DNA of 63,792 nucleotides from the NCBI GenBank assembly GCA_030041215.1, contig JASHOH010000133.1:1-63792 (forward strand), given 5' to 3'. Shown here in pieces: positions 28,701-60,736 of this stretch. Source of the DNA: Candidatus Sulfotelmatobacter sp. Lineage in GTDB: Bacteria > Acidobacteriota > Terriglobia > Terriglobales > Acidobacteriaceae. A model generated the notes under the pieces. The model was not told the origin of the DNA, searched no databases, and saw only the letters and a list, made by a program, of their open reading frames with translations. A program made the translations under genes and the position numbers. Position 1 is the stretch's first letter; every line of letters starts with the position of its first letter.

Positions 28701-29057
28701 GGAGATGTGAGGATTCCTCGCTTGTGATTATAGATGATGCCACGGAGCGCTTTAGGCTGCGTACCTGAAACATAAACGCTCTTATTTCAATTCGCCCCGC
28801 GTGCAGCTTGAGGTACCGACGACCGGCGTCATCCCGAAACCCCGCGTTTTACAGGTAGACCCTCGGCTTCAGCCGAGGGCGGCGAAGCCGCGGGGCGAGG
28901 AGCCTGCTCTGAGCCGAGTGGCAAAAGAACCTCGCGTGTCATAAGATGCGGGCGGGCGGTTAGCGGGCGTATCGGTTTCCAAGCACCCAATTTCCGCCTC
29001 TGGCATCCAACACTCAGGAAATTTGCTCAATTCGAATTCGTCGCTGGGAGGATAACG
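28701..29057. other. Intergenic region upstream of tolQ and the PRC gene
   Basis: A 357-base divergent spacer. It should contain promoters for tolQ (minus) and the PRC-barrel gene (plus) but shows no clear consensus box. It carries a palindromic repeat at 28826-28915 that matches the in-frame insert in miaB. No gene is supported. Confidence 0.5.
28826..28915 (+). repeat. Palindromic repeat R2, intergenic copy
   Basis: Starts GCGTCATCCCGAA, continues CGCGTTTTACAGGTAGACC, and contains the nested palindromes CTCGGCTTCAGCCGAG and GCGGCGAAGCCGC. Identical blocks of 13, 12 and 17 bases are shared with the element inside miaB at 58193-58290. Confidence 0.85.
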
Positions 29058-29936: not shown

Positions 29937-31673
29937 GTGCTGGTTGAGCTGCGCCTGGAGAACTACGCAGTCATCGACAATGCGGCGGTCGAGTTCGCTC
30001 CCGGACTGAACCTGCTGACCGGCGAAACCGGCGCGGGAAAATCCATCCTGATCGACGCCCTTGCCCTGCTCCTCGGCGAAAAGGCAACCACCGACATCAT
30101 TCGTTCCGGAGCCGAGCGCGCGGTAATCTCAGCCGTATTCGAATGCGAAGGCGATGCCAGTCAAGCAATCCAAACACTGCTCGAGAACAATGGCCTCGAC
30201 GAGTCCGATGACGGGTCTCTGATTCTGCGCCGCGAGATTTCGGGCTGGGGCAAAGGCCGGGTCTTCGTGAACAATCAGTCTGCCACCGTCGCCGTCCTGC
30301 GCCAGCTAGCGCCCCATCTCGCGACCATCCATGCGCAGAATGAATCGCTCTTATCGTTCGACGCTGCGGAGCGGCTTGCGCTGCTCGATGGCTTTGCAGG
30401 AAACCAGCTCGAGGCGGTAACCACAGCTTTCCAACAATGGAAGTCCATTCGCCAGCGTATCGCCGAGCTGGAACAGGGCGAACAAGACCGTTTGCGGCTG
30501 GTCGATCTTTGGACATTTCAGAAGCGCGAAATCGAGGAAGCCAGACTTCAGGCGGGCGAGGACGAACGGCTTGAGACGGAAAAACGCGTGCTTTCGAACG
30601 CCGAAAAAATTTACAACGCCGCCATGCGCGCGTTCGATCTGCTTTATGAAGGCGACGCCTCAACTTCCGCCTCGCTGCGCGCCGCGCAAAAGCAAATTGA
30701 AGAACTGGCACGATACGAACCGAAATTTCAGGAAGCGCTGTCCGCGCTCGAAAGCGCTCGCATCAGCATTCAGGATGTCGGCGCAACCGTGCGCGACTAC
30801 GCCGGTGGAATTCAGGCATCGCCAGAAGATCTGGCCGAGGTTGAAGACCGCCTCGCCCTGCTCGACCGGCTCAAACGCAAGTACGGCCCAACGCTCGAAG
30901 GGGTCATCGCTTTTGGTGAAGATGTGCATCGCAAACTCTCCGAGGTCGAAAATAAAGACGAGATTCTGCGCCAGCTCCGCGCTGATTTGAGCAAAGCCGC
31001 TGACGAATACCTGTGGACTGCGCAAGCACTCTCGAAAAAACGGCGCGCTGAGGCGGGAAAGCTGGAAAAGTTGGTCGAATCGGAAATCAATGATTTGGCC
31101 ATCAAGTCGCTTTTCCGGATTGAACTTACGAGCACTGAAGAAGAAGGGAACTGGTCTGCCAGCGGAATCGATCAGGTGACCTACATGATCGCCACCAACC
31201 CCGGCGAGCCCATGCAGCCGCTGGAACAGATCGCCTCCGGTGGAGAGTTGTCGCGGGTCATGCTGGCTTTGAAAGTGAGCGTGGAATCCGGTAACGCGGC
31301 CAACGATTCCACCCTTCGCAAAAAGCGCCAAGGGTGGGGCACCCGCTCCTCAGGGGAAGCTCCGCGCACCCTGGTCTTCGACGAAATCGATACCGGCATC
31401 GGAGGCCGGGCCGCAGAAGCTGTAGGCAAGAAACTAAAATCGCTCGCGCGCGCAAACCAGGTGCTGTGTGTCACACACCTGCCGCAGATCGCCACCTTCG
31501 CCGATCACCACTACGTCGTCGAGAAGAAAGTTTCGGCTGGCCGCACCCGCACGATTATCCGCCCAATCAGCGGGGAAGAACGCACGGAAGAAGTCGCCCG
31601 CATGTTAAGCGGTTCCAAACTGACCGAAACCTCCCGCAAGCACGCGGAACAGATGATCAAGTCAAACGCCTAG
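29937..31673 (+). CDS. recN: DNA repair protein RecN, with an in-frame hairpin insert
   Basis: SMC-like double-strand-break repair ATPase of 578 residues. The GTG at 29937 (MLVELRLENYAVID), preceded by GAGGAC, is preferred over a longer frame. Walker A is GETGAGKS (about 29-36). Coiled coils cover about 150-380. The ABC signature is IASGGELSRVMLAL (about 430), and Walker B is TLVFDEIDTGIGG (about 476). Between signature and Walker B lies an extra segment, SGNAANDSTLRKKRQGWGTR and a few more residues. It is encoded around a perfect hairpin at 31309-31337 that looks like one of the repeat elements of this genome. Confidence 0.93.
   Translation: MLVELRLENYAVIDNAAVEFAPGLNLLTGETGAGKSILIDALALLLGEKATTDIIRSGAERAVISAVFECEGDASQAIQTLLENNGLDESDDGSLILRREISGWGKGRVFVNNQSATVAVLRQLAPHLATIHAQNESLLSFDAAERLALLDGFAGNQLEAVTTAFQQWKSIRQRIAELEQGEQDRLRLVDLWTFQKREIEEARLQAGEDERLETEKRVLSNAEKIYNAAMRAFDLLYEGDASTSASLRAAQKQIEELARYEPKFQEALSALESARISIQDVGATVRDYAGGIQASPEDLAEVEDRLALLDRLKRKYGPTLEGVIAFGEDVHRKLSEVENKDEILRQLRADLSKAADEYLWTAQALSKKRRAEAGKLEKLVESEINDLAIKSLFRIELTSTEEEGNWSASGIDQVTYMIATNPGEPMQPLEQIASGGELSRVMLALKVSVESGNAANDSTLRKKRQGWGTRSSGEAPRTLVFDEIDTGIGGRAAEAVGKKLKSLARANQVLCVTHLPQIATFADHHYVVEKKVSAGRTRTIIRPISGEERTEEVARMLSGSKLTETSRKHAEQMIKSNA
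31309..31337 (+). repeat. Hairpin element R3 inside recN
   Basis: CCACCCTT and AAGGGTGG pair around CGCAAAAAGCGCC, followed by GGCACCC. The pattern CCAC-N3-TCGC then GCG-N3/4-GTGGG is shared with hairpins at 3713, 7660 and 52770, with the arm bases changed in a compensatory way. It is in frame within recN. Confidence 0.6.
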
Positions 31674-48386: not shown

Positions 48387-48866
48387 CTAAGCACTCATTC
48401 CAAACCTCAGGCTTTCAGGAGGGGCATCCAGCAGAAGTCCTGGCCTAGCTGAGCTGTAGCGGTACTCCTTGGGCTCAACCACCAACCCGCCCTTCACGGC
48501 ATTCTTGCGAATGTAATCACGAAAAGAAAAATACTCCTCAGCATCCCGCACCCGCCGGTCATAGTAGCTTGACTGCCAAATCTCGTGCACAAATCCCAAT
48601 TCTTTTTTCGCTCGAAAAGAAAAGCCTCCTTTGATCAACTGCATTGCCCTCTCCAGCGATTCGCGCGGAGTTATGAGGAGGTGAAAGTGATCGGGCATGA
48701 CTGCAAACTCATGAAGTAAAAATCTTTCTTGCCGGCGGTAATGAAGCAGAACCTTGACTAACAGCCCACCCATTCTCTCGGATTGAAGGATATTTCGCTT
48801 CTGAAATGTAGAAGCCGTGATGAAGTAACAGCCGTACCCAGTATTGCCTCGGCGCGGAGCAGCCAC
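48387..48866 (-). CDS. REP-associated tyrosine transposase (RAYT)
   Basis: A single-domain Y1/IS200-like transposase of about 159 residues. The GTG at 48866 gives MAAPRRGNTGYGCYFITAST, the expected N-terminus; codons further upstream read through a REP hairpin. The HUH motif is H60-F-H62 in MPDHFHLLITP. The candidate catalytic Tyr118 is in FRDYIRKNAVKGGLV. RAYTs are domesticated relatives of IS200/IS605 transposases that cleave and spread REP hairpins. REP-like hairpins lie on both sides, the upstream one inverted, which supports an active pairing. Confidence 0.88.
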   Translation of the reverse strand: MAAPRRGNTGYGCYFITASTFQKRNILQSERMGGLLVKVLLHYRRQERFLLHEFAVMPDHFHLLITPRESLERAMQLIKGGFSFRAKKELGFVHEIWQSSYYDRRVRDAEEYFSFRDYIRKNAVKGGLVVEPKEYRYSSARPGLLLDAPPESLRFGMSA

Positions 48867-48874
48867 GAAATGGA

Positions 48875-48943
48875 CCTCAGCGGCTGAAGCCGCGTACAAT
48901 CCGGATACTTTATCGCAGCGCCGAAGGCGCTGCGCCACCCAAA
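48875..48943 (-). repeat. REP unit 3, upstream of RAYT
   Basis: On the minus strand it reads TGGGTGGCGCAGCGCCTTCG, GCGCTGCG, then GCGGCTTCAGCCGCTGAGG. It shares ends and hairpin order with the two units on the other side of the RAYT but is inverted. It ends about nine bases from the RAYT start codon and may affect its translation. Confidence 0.78.
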
Positions 48944-49050
48944 AGCAGTAAAGTACCTGGCACCCACCAATTCGGGACAGCAGGGTCGGCCTCAGGAGAG
49001 GGGGCAAAGACTGGCCCAGCCTTTCGCGCGCCCCGAACCGGGAGGCGGCG

Positions 49051-49455
49051 TCACGGGCTAATCGTAAACGAAACCTCATTTGAGCTCTTGGCGCCACACG
49101 AGGTTGTGGTCCTCGCCCCGATTGCACCAGAAGCAAAGGTTACGCCCCCACTCGGAGGGTTGAACACGTAAACCAGCACCGTGCCCGGCTGTTCGATGTC
49201 TTTCGCCGGGATCGAAGCGACCAGTTGGTCACTATTGACGAACGCCGTTGCAACGGAGAAGCCGTTCCAAACCACCACAGAGTTGTGGCGGAAATCATCG
49301 CCGTTGACGGTTAGAACAAACTCGTCTCCTCCAGCGGTTGCGCTGCTCGGCGAGAGCGAAGTTACCGATGGCGCTGGCGGACAGGAACAGGAGAGAACTG
49401 GAAGCAAAAGAATCGCTAACGCGCCCAAGAGTAGCGATCTTGTTATCGTTGCCAT
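49051..49455 (-). CDS. Secreted IPT/TIG-domain lipoprotein
   Basis: A 134-residue protein. The signal peptide MATITRSLLLGALAILLLPVLSC ends with a lipobox-like LSCSC. The mature part is a single immunoglobulin-like IPT/TIG domain: VTSLSPSSATAGGDEFVLTVNGDDFRHNSVVVWNG and LVASIPAKDIEQPGTVLVYV are typical. Such single domains probably bind surface polymers or other proteins. It lies upstream of the RAYT gene on the same strand but unrelated to it. Confidence 0.82.
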   Translation of the reverse strand: MATITRSLLLGALAILLLPVLSCSCPPAPSVTSLSPSSATAGGDEFVLTVNGDDFRHNSVVVWNGFSVATAFVNSDQLVASIPAKDIEQPGTVLVYVFNPPSGGVTFASGAIGARTTTSCGAKSSNEVSFTISP

Positions 49456-56600: not shown

Positions 56601-57252
56601 TGGCTATGTCGATGTGCCATTCGGTTTCCAGTTTGGCGTGATGTCGCACTTCTATAGTCCGCTTGCCATAACTCTGACTGTGCCGAACACCGGCCTTGGC
56701 CCGGGTGAAATTTTCCGCACTGACTTCACCGGCAGTGGCGTAACTCAGGATCCCTTGCCTGGTACCCACGTGGGTGAGTTCGACCGCGGCATCAACGCCA
56801 GCAGCATCAACACAGTTATAACGAATTTCAATAATACGGTCGTAGGACAGCCAACTCCCGCAGGCAACGTTCTGGTTCAGAACGGCTTTATGGCCAATGC
56901 AGACCTCGTCGCCCTGGGAGGAGTGGCCAATGGCGGCAACCCGCTGCCGCTAGCTCCTGCTGGCCAGGTCAACTATCCCTGGCTGAAGGCCTTTGACACA
57001 ACCATTGCCTGGACCTATAAGTTCAAGGAGCGGGTTACGATCAAACCGTCAATCGGCTTCTACAATCTCTTCAATTTTGCAAATTTCGATCTTCCGACCA
57101 GCATGATGTCAGGACTGCTCACCGGCACGCCTGGCGCCATCAACGGCACAACTTACGCCAATCAACTGGTTAATCGCGTCGGGGTAGGTACCGGCGTCTA
57201 CACGCTGGGTTCGCCGCGCGAAACCGAATTCGGTCTGAAGATCATCTTTTAA
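53623..57252 (+). CDS. TonB-dependent receptor, Oar-like (2)
   Basis: A 1209-residue outer-membrane receptor. The ATG follows AAAGGACG. The signal peptide (ILLCGLLVPTALAQ) is followed by a carboxypeptidase-regulatory-like fold (about 35-120, GSIAGTVTDATGAVLPNAKVTITG), then a TonB plug (about 130-250, NLPVNGRNFLDLAQLEPG) and a large barrel ending EFGLKIIF, with the terminal aromatic used for barrel insertion. It resembles receptor 1 in layout but is diverged. No linked transporter or enzyme genes reveal its substrate. Confidence 0.93.
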   Translation: MSRPSSPLLHVSLFSLSGILLCGLLVPTALAQTSISTGSIAGTVTDATGAVLPNAKVTITGSTGQTIHATTNNAGFYSSGALIPGSYSLRVEAKGFKTEKLTVDVKVDNVANGSLKMEVGSENTVVEVLASAVQVNTEQATVQGVLTASQIENLPVNGRNFLDLAQLEPGVQIQDGQNFDPTKAGYSSISFGGRFGRTARIEVDGVDVSDETVGTTTTDIPASGIQEFSIGQASLDMSTELTSSGSVNVTTKAGTNAFHGEAFGQFRDSTVGAAALPVPAGTPAPPYQRSQYGGDFGGPILKNKLFFFLDGERTVQNTQTPVPISYPFTAYSGTFSDPFREANLLGRVDYQLTKGTRLFYRFSYFKNLLAATFGYGYSVYTNKDITRNDVVGVDFNTGSFTHSIRFSYLKFQNQIVDATIGTSLPFANDGVEIFMGATGLVAGPNLLAPQSTPQSDHEIKYDASKIQGRHIIRFGVAFNHLVGGGFASFWKNAPQIVSAVTTADIATAAAGPFPGGSANPLNYPADGGYIIGNGLGYSFVPPSLGFPAGELGPDNRILLYLGDSWKIKPNFTLTYGLRYERDTGRSDSQFAPLPGLSALIPGLGNAVRQPNENLGPNLGFAWDPWKSGKTSIRGGIGLFWENAIWNNVLFDGPFREPTGAFLQTPSPCSAAGTPATIQTTVGPILASAGSPNSICGTTSSYPYIGVAIPLIIAFQQQYQADSPFNINAPNPSYAGQYLTDCTGGTNCFFFPGDSMFYPNYRTPRSVVMNIGVQHEIRPGMVVSVDFIRNVQTHFLLGVDQNHAGDIRYFSSAGAAAAIAAVIANCGGGVTTVAGTYTAPCATDPSNGTNDGGTYVPRIATIADYAANGLGSSSDMGGESCLMALGHPCAFGGINSLAPPLGFLAPVGRSEYDGLQMKWAENVKHPFRGAKDFNFQVSYALSRFNNSGGAVPPDTTVTAVAADQDFIVPALDNANVNRYFGPSTLDRTHQLSFGGYVDVPFGFQFGVMSHFYSPLAITLTVPNTGLGPGEIFRTDFTGSGVTQDPLPGTHVGEFDRGINASSINTVITNFNNTVVGQPTPAGNVLVQNGFMANADLVALGGVANGGNPLPLAPAGQVNYPWLKAFDTTIAWTYKFKERVTIKPSIGFYNLFNFANFDLPTSMMSGLLTGTPGAINGTTYANQLVNRVGVGTGVYTLGSPRETEFGLKIIF

Positions 57253-57275
57253 AGAACTCACTGAAGTAGTGAAAC

Positions 57276-57309
57276 GCCAGCCCCGAGCAGGGCTGGCGGT
57301 TTTTTTTTG
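57276..57309 (+). terminator. Rho-independent terminator after receptor 2
   Basis: CCAGCCC and GGGCTGG form a strong stem within CGCCAGCCCCGAGCAGGGCT, followed by GGCGG and eight or nine T residues. It may also serve the convergent small gene at 57320. Confidence 0.93.
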
Positions 57310-57319
57310 CGAAAAACTT

Positions 57320-57646
57320 TTACCGACTTACGCCGTTGCGCAGCTGTTTTGCCAGCTTCTCAATCCTTCTAAGTTTTTCGACCATATCACTGGCGATTAC
57401 GCCCTTCTGGATATTATCGACATCACTAGGTATCGTCTTCGCGATCGTGGCAAGTTCATCTGCCTCTTTCGAGAGTTTGTCGAGATCAATTCGCAGCACA
57501 GGTTTGGCCGGAGGAGGAATGTCTCTTTGAGCTTGCGCGTCGGCTTGCTGCGCCTGCCGGATGCCCGGTGATCGAGGGTCGGTTTGCGCCAGAACTGGAG
57601 ATACCACCAACAGAACGAGACCGAGAGTCAGAAGCAGTGGCCTCAC
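57320..57646 (-). CDS. Small secreted protein of unknown function
   Basis: A 108-residue protein from GTG at 57646, chosen because AGGAGG lies six bases upstream and the signal peptide MRPLLLTLGLVLLVVSPVLAQ follows directly. The mature part has a Gln/Ala/Asp-rich segment and a conserved-looking core, LRIDLDKLSKEADELATIAKTIPSDVDNIQKG, ending in basic helices (EKLRRIEKLAKQLR). It is helical and hydrophilic, a possible periplasmic adaptor. No family name can be given. Confidence 0.68.
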   Translation of the reverse strand: MRPLLLTLGLVLLVVSPVLAQTDPRSPGIRQAQQADAQAQRDIPPPAKPVLRIDLDKLSKEADELATIAKTIPSDVDNIQKGVIASDMVEKLRRIEKLAKQLRNGVSR

Positions 57647-57796
57647 CGCACACCTCCTACACAATGCGTACTGCTAAAGGGATGTGCCCATTGTAGCGCC
57701 GCGGTCAGGTTAACGGTCGCAGAGTGCGCTGAATTGCCGGCCACACAGGCAAAAAGCAAGAGGCTCGCAGCTTCTCAACGCGCTATACTTGGCTAT

Positions 57797-59308
57797 ATGT
57801 CTGGGGACGCGCAGAAGACTTTCTATCTCGAAACTTTCGGCTGCCAGATGAACGTGCATGACTCGGAGAAAGTCATCGGCACGTTGCGGCACCAAGGTTA
57901 TCGCCAGGTGGAAACGGTCGAGCAGGCCGATCTGATTCTCTACAATACCTGCTCCATCCGCGACAAGGCCGAGCAGAAAGTCTTCCATCGCCTGGCTGAT
58001 TTCAAGAAGCTGCAAGTGCTGGGCAAGAAGTTCGGAGTGCTCGGCTGCGTGGCCCAGCAGGAAGGCGAGAAGATTTTTGAACGCGCTCCACATGTGTCGC
58101 TGGTGTGCGGGTCGGCCTCATATCGGAATTTGCCGCAGATGCTGGTCCAACTGGAAACTGCCCCCGCCTTGGACCCCGCGCGCTATGACAAGGCGTCATC
58201 CCGAAGCTCGGCGTTTTCAGGTAGACCATCGGCTTCAGCCGGTGGCGGCGAAGCCGCGGGCGGAGGGATCTTGCGTGGAGCGCAACCGGATTCGGTAACC
58301 ATAACTCCGAACTCGCGACTAGGGACTCAGGACCTCGTCCGCATCACCGGCCTCGATGACCGTGAAACCGACAAGTGTTTTGAAACCGAGTTCACTGCCC
58401 GCAGCAATCCCCATCGCGGATACATCACCATCATCGAAGGCTGCGACAAGTTCTGCGCCTATTGCGTGGTGCCGTTTACGCGCGGCAAAGAGCGCAGCCG
58501 CACTTCCGATTCCGTGCTCGCCGAAGCGCGGCAAATGGCCGATCTCGGCTATACAGAAATTCAGTTGCTTGGCCAGAACGTGAATTCCTATAAAGATCCG
58601 ACAGGGAAGCCGTCTTCCCGGAAAAGCTTCGCCGAATTGCTGGCCGCGGTTGGCGAAGTTCCCGGCATAAAGCGAGTGCGCTTCACCACTTCGCATCCGC
58701 GCGACTTCGGACGCGACATTGTCGAGGCCATTGATGCGGTTCCCACATTGTGCGATCACGTGCATCTGCCCGTGCAGAGCGGCTCCGATCGCGTACTCGA
58801 CGCCATGCAGCGCCTCTACACATGCGAGCAGTATCTGGAGCGCATCGCATGGATGAAGTCTGCGAAGCGTGATATCAGCATCACCACCGATATCATTGTC
58901 GGTTTCCCGGGCGAGAGCGAAGCCGAATTTTCCCAAACCCTAAGTCTGCTGGATAAAGTCGGCTACGACGGCGTTTTCTCCTTCAAGTATTCGCCGCGCC
59001 CGAATACGCCCGCGCTGGCGCTTGAAGACGCGATTCCCGATGGAGAAAAAGCGCGCCGCCTCGAAGTCCTTATGACGAGGCAGAAAAACATACAGATGTC
59101 TCGGTACAAGAGATATATAGGAAGCACAGTGGAAGTTATGGTTGAAGGCAAGAACGAGGCACGCTCGCAGTGGATCGGCCGCACCAGCCAGAACAAAACT
59201 CTGAACTTCAGCGCCCCCGAGTTGGCTTCGCCCAAGATGGGAAGCTATGTTCCGGTTCGCGTGATCGGCAGTTTTCCTAACAGCCTTTTGGGAGAATTAG
59301 TGGTATAA
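57797..59308 (+). CDS. miaB: tRNA-2-methylthio-N6-dimethylallyladenosine synthase MiaB, with repeat-derived insert
   Basis: A 503-residue radical-SAM methylthiotransferase modifying A37 of tRNAs. The start ATG at 57797 gives MSGDAQKTFYLETFGCQMNVHDSEKV. Auxiliary-cluster cysteines are in FGCQMN, NTCSIRD and LGCVAQ. The radical-SAM CxxxCxxC is at 216-223 (CDKFCAYC), and a TRAM domain ends the protein. Residues about 130-180 (KASSRSSAFSGRPSASAGGG and following) are extra and are encoded by repeat R2. The insert falls between the UPF0004 domain and the radical-SAM core. The protein is longer than the usual 440-460. Confidence 0.94.
   Translation: MSGDAQKTFYLETFGCQMNVHDSEKVIGTLRHQGYRQVETVEQADLILYNTCSIRDKAEQKVFHRLADFKKLQVLGKKFGVLGCVAQQEGEKIFERAPHVSLVCGSASYRNLPQMLVQLETAPALDPARYDKASSRSSAFSGRPSASAGGGEAAGGGILRGAQPDSVTITPNSRLGTQDLVRITGLDDRETDKCFETEFTARSNPHRGYITIIEGCDKFCAYCVVPFTRGKERSRTSDSVLAEARQMADLGYTEIQLLGQNVNSYKDPTGKPSSRKSFAELLAAVGEVPGIKRVRFTTSHPRDFGRDIVEAIDAVPTLCDHVHLPVQSGSDRVLDAMQRLYTCEQYLERIAWMKSAKRDISITTDIIVGFPGESEAEFSQTLSLLDKVGYDGVFSFKYSPRPNTPALALEDAIPDGEKARRLEVLMTRQKNIQMSRYKRYIGSTVEVMVEGKNEARSQWIGRTSQNKTLNFSAPELASPKMGSYVPVRVIGSFPNSLLGELVV
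58193..58290 (+). repeat. Palindromic repeat R2 inserted in frame in miaB
   Basis: Begins GCGTCATCCCGAAGCTCGG, then CGTTTTCAGGTAGACCATCG, GCTTCAGCCGGTGGC and GGCGAAGCCGCGGGC. It aligns with the intergenic repeat at 28826-28915 over its whole length, with only scattered mismatches and one indel. It is translated without interrupting the miaB frame. Confidence 0.88.
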
Positions 59309-59335
59309 GAGGCGGAGAACGATGAAGGAGTCCGC

Positions 59336-59821
59336 ATGGAAGTAGAAATGACAATCCGTGGCCTGCTGATGGATCCGGTCTCAAACATGCCGATCGTCAT
59401 CCTGAAGGACGTGTCTGGCAATAGCGTGCTCCCGATCTGGGTGGGCGTTTACGAGGCGAACGCGATTGCGCTGGAAATCGAAAAAGTCAGCACACCGCGG
59501 CCGATGACCCACGATCTGATCAAGAATGTGCTGACCGGGCTCGAGACGCGTGTGCATAAAGTTGTGGTCACGGAGCTGCGCGAAGACACGTTCTATGCGG
59601 TGATCTGGCTGGAGCGCGGTGGCGAAGTCATCAGCATCGACTCGCGCCCTTCGGATGCGCTGGCACTGGCGCTGCGCGTGGATTGCCCGATCTTTGTGGA
59701 TGAGCTGGTGCTGAAGAATTCCAAGCAGGCAGCCAGCATGTCGGACCGCGTGACCGCGGAAGAGCTACGCAAATACTTGGAAGGTCTGAACGACGAGGAT
59801 TTGGGCAAGTACAAGATGTGA
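59336..59821 (+). CDS. Bifunctional nuclease family protein (DUF151)
   Basis: A 161-residue protein of the BFN/DUF151 family. EVEMTIRGLLMDPVSNMPIVILKDVSGNSVLPIWVGVYEANAIALEIE and VISIDSRPSDALALALRVDCPIFVDE are diagnostic. Members are reported to have DNase and RNase activity, and in bacteria the gene often follows miaB, as here (27-base gap, GAAGGAG ribosome site). The C-terminal UVR-like helix is missing, as in short members. Probably co-transcribed with miaB. Confidence 0.9.
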   Translation: MEVEMTIRGLLMDPVSNMPIVILKDVSGNSVLPIWVGVYEANAIALEIEKVSTPRPMTHDLIKNVLTGLETRVHKVVVTELREDTFYAVIWLERGGEVISIDSRPSDALALALRVDCPIFVDELVLKNSKQAASMSDRVTAEELRKYLEGLNDEDLGKYKM

Positions 59822-60736
59822 AATTCCAGACAATGGGCTTTGACGCAGCCCTTGCCAGAGATAATGCTGCTGAGCCATTGCTCGGGGACGAGATGTAGCT
59901 TTCACGGCTGAGCGATTGCCGGCCATCAGCAGCAGGTCACGGATGCCTATCTCGTGGGCCTGTCGATTCACCGCAAAGGGAAGTTCGCCACGATGCACCA
60001 GAGCACTTCGGCTTACTCCACGGCAATAGTGGAGCGGCCAGTCCAGCGCAGCCACCCAAGACTTTACATAATACCTGTTATCGGACACTGCGTCACCGCA
60101 ACGAGATCCCACACCAAGAGCAGACTTTAGTGTCGCACGCCAAATCTGTCACAGAAAGCGACGCTTGAATTCAATTCCCAAGAGCGCATTCCGATCGTCA
60201 TTCATCGTGCAACAATTGCACTTGTTTTCACAATAAATGCTGTCTTCTTTCGCAAACGTGCTTGCGCGACAGCATTTCGCGGCATCCGCAAAAATAATCA
60301 AATTTCTATTGACAATTCTCCGAAACGATCACATCATTCCCACGGTCGAGTTGAGCCAGACCTTAGTTGCGGTCGTTCGGGGAGCTCTAATCCGCACAGA
60401 CTGGCGACCCCCCTAACTCGATTTTTCTTCCCGGCCAAACGCAGCATTGCACCTGAAGCAGCCAATCTGCGCGGCAATCGTTGTGTTTTGTTGTAGCCTC
60501 GCCGGCGACGCGCGGCCGGAGAGGCGGGCCCTTGCGCATGAGCCTTTCAAGCTTTTCAACATCCGGCAAGCCGACGAGAACAACTCATCGCGTGCCAGTC
60601 ATGGACCGCCAGGCGGTTGCTCCAGCCAAGTTGTGTGGATTACATGCAATGGTGAAGCAGCATTCCCGACCGTCCGCGAGGAAGTTTGCCCGCAACACCA
60701 AAGACTCAATGGAGTGACACAAGGAGAAAACAGAAT
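59822..60736. other. Long intergenic region with a toxin remnant
   Basis: 915 bases with no intact gene. A decayed VapC fragment lies at about 59880-60080. Further on are an inverted repeat GTGCAA-CAA-TTGCAC (about 60208-60222), AT-rich DNA at 60170-60310 with a TTGACA at about 60308, and a frame at 60447-60740 judged unlikely to be translated. It may contain the promoter and a long leader for the peptidase gene at 60737. Confidence 0.55.
59880..60080 (+). pseudogene. Remnant of a PIN-domain (VapC) toxin gene
   Basis: From 59915 one frame reads IAGHQQQVTDAYLVGLSIHRKGKFATMHQSTSAY, and a few codons later LYIIPVIG. The pattern AGHRQVTDAYLLALA...KGKLATLD is the C-terminal half of VapC toxins. 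A shift of one base just upstream, near GAGCGATTG, would join DVAFTAER to it. The N-terminal half and any antitoxin are gone, and the catalytic LATLD Asp reads His here. It is a decayed toxin-antitoxin locus. Confidence 0.7.

Follow-up and report, generated by a model that had tools for sequence, protein, structure and literature searches.

In-frame palindromic repeats appear to have filled the MiaB interdomain linker more than once in Candidatus Sulfotelmatobacter

Our analysis of a 63,792-nucleotide stretch of DNA from Candidatus Sulfotelmatobacter sp. (contig JASHOH010000133.1 of assembly GCA_030041215.1; hereafter the window) suggests that a dispersed palindromic repeat has entered the miaB gene in frame, and, judging from the sequences, the same MiaB linker appears to have been filled by repeats more than once in the genus. 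In the account that we favor, to which we give a probability of roughly 0.8, a CGTC-tagged hairpin repeat (here with a nested GTAG-tagged hairpin), mobile or formerly mobile, would have entered, with the frame preserved, the short linker that joins the UPF0004 domain to the radical-SAM domain, perhaps by means of a transposase acting in trans, and/or would have spread through recombination between its copies. Selection would spare only inserts that are in frame and free of stops, and the insert would be translated as a disordered tether that is near-neutral and tolerated by the enzyme, since the joint would be flexible. In this genus, the MiaB linker and the linker of an ASPIC/UnbV-domain protein would have taken up repeats from the host genome time and again.

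The miaB gene, for tRNA-2-methylthio-N6-isopentenyladenosine methylthiotransferase, occupies positions 57797..59308 of the plus strand and encodes 503 amino acids with UPF0004, radical SAM and TRAM domains. Six cysteines (C16, C52, C84, C216, C220 and C223), which presumably have an iron-sulphur role, were invariant in a 38-row MiaB alignment that included the window protein. The protein scored 447 bits against TIGR01574 (MiaB; cut-off 355), and its AlphaFold model (mean pLDDT 82.3) matched MiaB 7mjz as a whole (TMt 0.88), with pLDDT below 50 for residues 130-178. The expanded interdomain linker comprises 63 codons (58157..58345, plus strand; residues 121-183). A first-pass annotation had described a dispersed repeat inserted at 58180..58335 within an open frame. 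The miaB frame is in fact intact across the insert and most of the excess is the repeat copy (about 58191-58290), but the end of the linker consists of four degenerate heptamers of the GGGACTC type, recognized by sequence pattern (58309..58336, plus strand).

The miaB copy is a long form of the element in the plus orientation (58191..58290; frame KASSRSSAFSGRPSASAGGGEAAGGGILRG). It has the CGTC tag as defined in PMC3733652 (58194..58197, read from the sequence), followed by the 5' arm of the outer stem, ATCCC (58198..58202), whose 3' arm GGGAT lies at 58265..58269; both arms were assigned from the sequence and the pairing analysis of the copies. Between them is a loop unit that is not in the short form of the element (58220..58256), made up of a GGTAG tag (58220-58224), a hairpin CCATCGGCT..AGCCGGTGG (58226-58245) and a second small hairpin (58246-58256), all on the plus strand. 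A second long-form copy in the window (28825..28900, plus strand) overlaps an open frame at a point upstream of its PRC-barrel domain, and is therefore probably intergenic. The two copies aligned at 88% over 76 columns (58192-58266 versus 28825-28900; blastn E of about 6e-22 within the window), so that the match reported in the first-pass annotation is real, although its main identical blocks are 14, 7, 10, 13 and 17 bases long and not exactly 13, 12 and 17. The BLAST match stops at 58266; the last 20 or so bases of the miaB copy resemble, by eye only, what follows some of the genomic copies on their 3' side.

The element is dispersed in the window genome (5.03 Mb, 251 contigs), as are the palindromic elements of Rickettsia. 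A 25-mer with up to three mismatches was found at 70 places, compared with 0 for the reversed pattern, which rules out a chance match; the genome-wide BLASTN search proposed in the annotation, with the miaB copy as the query, likewise gave at least 22 places at E <= 1.6e-11, miaB included, with 40 of the 74 candidates scored. Forty-four of the 70 copies have the short form, a CGTC-tagged hairpin of about 50 bp (consensus GGCGTCATtCCGAAGCCCCGCGcTTTCACCAGCGGGGCGAGGaATCTC) with 5 bp, an internal loop, 7 bp and a loop of 10. As in CGTC-tagged REPs, CGTC is unpaired at one end and the stem starts with AT (consensus GGCGTCATtCCGAAGCC), the first two stem pairs, AT and TA, each being present in 41 of the 44 short copies. 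Stem pairs were preserved in 38 to 44 of these copies, with two-sided changes at three pairs (T-A in 23 and C-G in 18; C-G in 36 and G-C in 6; C-G in 40 and T-A in 2); note that the copies were chosen by patterns covering most of the stem, which favors pairing. The long form, about 17-18 of the 70 copies, has GGTAGA or GATAGA in the loop together with a further hairpin; a GTAG tag beside a hairpin, as in GTAG-tagged REPs, was present in 18 of the 70 copies in the alignment. The pattern was found in 31 of the 37 genus genomes and in 1 of the 24 genomes outside the genus, the latter as a single match with three mismatches.

We compared the MiaB linker across named loci and genus genomes (genomes are numbered with G, the window genome being G000; loci are numbered with L). 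The spacing from GCVAQ to EGC was 131 residues in the window MiaB and 73 or 74 residues in 74 of the 80 named loci, which confirms the extra residues noted in the first-pass annotation between the UPF0004 domain and the radical-SAM core and rules out an insertion common to the MiaB of the whole class. Among the remaining six named loci, L157 has unknown bases and five have a longer spacing; the cores of four of these (L097, L098, L103 and L161) are identical to those of the genus genomes G014, G035, G008 and G015, respectively, and the fifth is L099, which, as well as L103, is recorded as Candidatus Sulfotelmatobacter. The linker was read in 31 of the 37 genus genomes and had 5-6 residues in 7 of them and 14 to 91 residues in 24 (the other six are G005, cut by a contig end, G013, which is partial, and G009, G031, G032 and G036, with no full miaB match among those listed). 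A linker of 5-6 residues was also found in three same-class rows of the MiaB tree. In the comparison with relatives that the annotation had called for, the segment was accordingly missing from most MiaB homologues or replaced there by another; homologues without the insert are likewise characteristic of the Rickettsia elements.

By eye on the DNA, the repeat was identified in the miaB linker in the plus orientation in G000 and G030 and in the minus orientation in G016, L099, G004, G017 and G022. In G004, a further in-frame stretch of eight codons is nested inside the repeat, and the linker of G022 has an additional palindrome of a second family, which had matches in all four genomes searched (G000, G001, G022 and G025). 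The linker around the insert in the window miaB is itself altered. In G010, whose miaB is placed by the tree as sister to that of the window, the linker has 23 residues and no copy of the repeat was seen in it.

The history of these insertions was examined with a 50-row tree built from the MiaB core, the linker being excluded, on which six changes are required among the states none, plus and minus. Grouping of the five minus carriers as one clade was rejected (AU; P = 8.8e-57) and that of the two plus carriers was weakly rejected (P = 0.0325), both tested clades having been named after inspection of the tree. Taken with the tree, the opposite orientations point to a minimum of two separate insertions into miaB, a minimum that the tree itself raises to three, unless miaB was exchanged between species, as may have happened given that the tree is of a single gene and has 25 of its 47 inner branches starred.

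Similar hairpins, with CCCA[CT]GTCTCCC and GGGAGACGTGGG arms, were observed in the miaB linkers of G001 (L084) and G025 (L068), two lineages that are apart on the tree. We considered the strict CGTCTCCC hairpin as a third dispersed family, and with exact arms it was found only in the miaB of G001 among the 61 genomes; the G001 and G025 linker hairpins are therefore not claimed as dispersed.

Heptamer repeats were also found in many miaB linkers. The GGGACTC type had 39 pattern matches in the window genome (overlaps counted), compared with 2 for the reversed pattern. The four genomes with this type in the linker had 39, 26, 29 and 2 genomic matches, whereas the other 27 had a median of 1 (P = 0.002), and the presence of the GGAAGCC type in the linker (16 genomes with it and 15 without) was associated with its genome-wide abundance (P = 0.003); these are Mann-Whitney tests (n = 31) uncorrected for kinship, with loose linker patterns and with overlapping array matches and the miaB matches included in the counts. 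Carrying the palindrome in miaB also tended to go with more genomic copies (P = 0.019, with the same reservations). There were counter-examples for each. G002 and G020 have 37 and 8 GGAAGCC heptamers in the genome yet short linkers, the heptamer pattern is in the linker but nowhere in the genome count (0) of G006, G026 and G027, and G025 has the GGGACTC type in its linker with 2 matches in the genome. For the palindrome, the carriers G004 and G017 have 5 and 3 copies, whereas the non-carriers G001 and G025 have 62 and 52. Beyond the genus, G051 had 23 matches of the GGGACTC type (9 for the reversed control there) and G058 had 2 of the GGAAGCC type.

Two of the 70 copies in the window genome are well inside open frames, with 100 codons or more on either side, one in miaB and the other in a gene for an ASPIC/UnbV-domain protein. 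The Rickettsia elements are found in frame within several conserved genes per genome, and here two genes have such copies; Rickettsia has many more in-frame gene copies than two. A Pfam scan of 20 open frames overlapping copies gave a Pfam match in 6, and in the matched frames other than that of UnbV the copies were toward the frame ends, away from the matched domains. The ASPIC/UnbV copy of the window genome is in frame at about residues 491-511 of L059 (G000:C179:35335-35394). A search for this protein gave a match in 25 of 31 genomes, and the repeat was present in 8 of the 17 genus matches whose linker was read whole or in part, in the short form in G000, G002, G009, G015, G016 and G027 and in the long form in G005 and G013. 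The insert was absent from all three UnbV homologues of another family of the order (37% identity). Other palindrome-like inserts were seen by eye in this linker in G001, G003, G004, G006, G007, G011 and G014, and extra pieces in G002 and G016. All eight copies have the minus orientation and the same frame at one site; one old insertion that was later altered accounts for this constant orientation no less well than several insertions would.

Further genes with deep in-frame copies were sought in ten regions with long open frames. One of them, in G027, was again ASPIC/UnbV; in the other nine the copies seemed, by eye, to lie at the ends of frames, upstream of a gene, or within frames in which no gene could be recognized. 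Outside the window genome, this search covered the minus-strand reading frame among the matches listed, and other genes may have been missed.

The distribution of these copies lends itself to a bolder reading, in which the two proteins have landing sites where several repeat families were captured repeatedly and translated, the linkers turning over like intergenic DNA and the sites being targeted or having been made recombinogenic by the first insertion; we regard this as doubtful. A preference of the mover or of recombination for the linker DNA as a target, beyond mere tolerance, would agree with the finding of deep in-frame copies in two genes only (among the matches listed), each in several species and with several repeat types. 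We nevertheless consider such targeting rather unlikely, because tolerance with many trials may suffice and because other genes may have escaped a search of the minus-strand frame in ten regions.

Long linkers are widespread (at least 14 residues in 24 of the 31 genus genomes read), and one may ask whether they have a function in MiaB for which they are selected in this genus, such as contact with the tRNA or a partner. This seems improbable, since the linkers of distant species look unrelated and have different repeats in either orientation, only close groups sharing theirs, and since the insert coincides with the residues of very low pLDDT in the window protein. Moreover, between G004 and G017 amino-acid changes were found in 6 of 45 linker codons versus 13 of 432 core codons, while silent changes were alike (5 of 45 and 61 of 432, respectively), although this comparison is of one pair with small numbers. 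As silent change was alike in the two parts and amino-acid change was higher in the linker, the substitution pattern, together with the open frame, fits a translated and weakly constrained tether, as far as sequences can tell.

The miaB copy is predicted to have a strong RNA fold (-38.4 kcal/mol for 58190-58275), and bypassing of inserted hairpins occurs in other systems. The insert might accordingly be transcribed and left untranslated, with ribosomes bypassing the hairpin or the RNA being spliced, so that the enzyme would have an ordinary linker. We judge this to be highly improbable. None of the 25 long MiaB linkers (882 codons) has an in-frame stop, whereas 13 and 12 of the 25 have stops in the other two forward frames, with the reservation that the linkers came from frames found open (no row was lost to a stop, the underlying matches contain no internal stop, L082 begins at a contig end, and a broken miaB might be missed). 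Shuffled linkers had 23 stops on average, and none of 2000 shuffled sets was free of stops. Bypassing would lift the selection for an open frame, and the open linkers therefore count against it. In addition, no Rfam match at the gathering score was found in 57000-60000 of the window. A preference of the repeat for particular reading frames (REIPRPAG.. in the minus and ASSRSP.. in the plus orientation) is not claimed as significant, since 5 of the 6 short-form frames are open by hand reading and independent events are few.

An assembly or binning artefact, which the 251 contigs of the window genome might bring to mind, is practically negligible, because the repeat is found at this position also in separate assemblies of other species, including L099, and all linkers that were read were open.

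As to the mover of the repeat in our preferred account, six matches to the Y1 transposase (Y1_Tnp) were found in the window genome, one of them in the window (PF01797; 48387-49136, minus strand). The element was absent within about 1.5 kb on either side of the four of six Y1_Tnp loci that were read, and the flanking of a RAYT gene by copies, as for GTAG-tagged REPs, was thus not seen at these four; bare GGTAGA was located 0.8 and 1.1 kb away at two loci. With no adjacent element at those four loci, the Y1_Tnp genes were dropped as demonstrated movers. The gene at 48387-49136 has a motif GGGTGGCGCAA..GCTTCAGCATTGCGAT repeated on its downstream side.

The first-pass annotation had interpreted the insert as a case of the pattern known from Rickettsia, and this holds as regards the open frame, the dispersed repeat and the shorter linker in relatives, but elements of this kind also occur beyond Rickettsia. 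GTAG and CGTC REPs lying in frame within genes are on record for several species outside Rickettsia, and PMC3733652 also describes two Xanthomonas species in which different REPs occupy about the same recB site. Among the R. conorii elements, RPE-4 and RPE-6 are counterparts of CGTC repeats (PMC3733652; PMC2635572). The Acidobacteriota repeat shares with the Rickettsia palindromic elements the presence of dispersed palindromic repeats in frame in unrelated conserved genes, where they are, here presumably, kept as an extra peptide. It differs in phylum, in the low share of its copies that are deep in open frames (2 of 70), and in that two genes were entered in species after species by several repeats, miaB in both orientations.

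In design the repeat is like the CGTC REPs, for which PMC3733652 gives a CGTC tag, a stem of 8-9 bp starting with AT and a loop of 4-5, with exceptions in loop length mentioned. The tag, the AT-starting stem, the hairpin and the intragenic copies are common to the Acidobacteriota repeat, whereas its stem (5 + 7 bp around an internal loop) and its loop of 10 differ, and its long form is composite, with a GTAG hairpin inside the loop, unlike the CGTC REPs described there. By these stem and loop lengths it falls outside the four families published there. The main text of PMC3733652 names Acidobacteria once, for transposases with terminal repeats. Small mobile sequences including MITEs also occur within genes (PMC2229807, PMC2759123), and the Acidobacteriota repeat resembles MITEs as a small non-autonomous repeat found also inside genes, a likeness that leaves aside terminal inverted repeats with target duplications.

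In searches of the open-access literature, subscription papers being mostly outside its scope, no report of in-frame or intragenic palindromic repeats was seen for Acidobacteriota or Sulfotelmatobacter; as far as these searches show, in-frame palindromic repeats are here extended to Acidobacteriota. The apparent novelty is that, across a genus, two particular protein linkers have been filled time after time, and by several repeats. Repeat DNA seems to be part of working proteins in a group of soil Acidobacteria, and 24 species-level genomes provide a natural series in which the length of one joint runs from 14 to 91 residues, as against 5-6, and different repeats account at least partly for what fills it. 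With this series, the origin of protein segments from repeat DNA, the neutrality of insertion, and attraction to a site as opposed to its tolerance can be tested.

Positions 31301-31347 of the window match the second dispersed palindrome (CCCACCCTTCG..CGAAGGGTGGGGC), the one also present in the miaB linker of G022. At L061 and L066, two related Y1_Tnp genes were seen by eye to be followed, no more than about 300 bases downstream, by CCC..GGG palindromes near this second family, a lead to the mover of that family. Finally, the UnbV linkers of G009 (L250) and G005 (L252) have flanks that are similar by eye, with the short form in one and the long form in the other; this pair is natural material for studying the entry of the GTAG hairpin into, or its exit from, the CGTC element.
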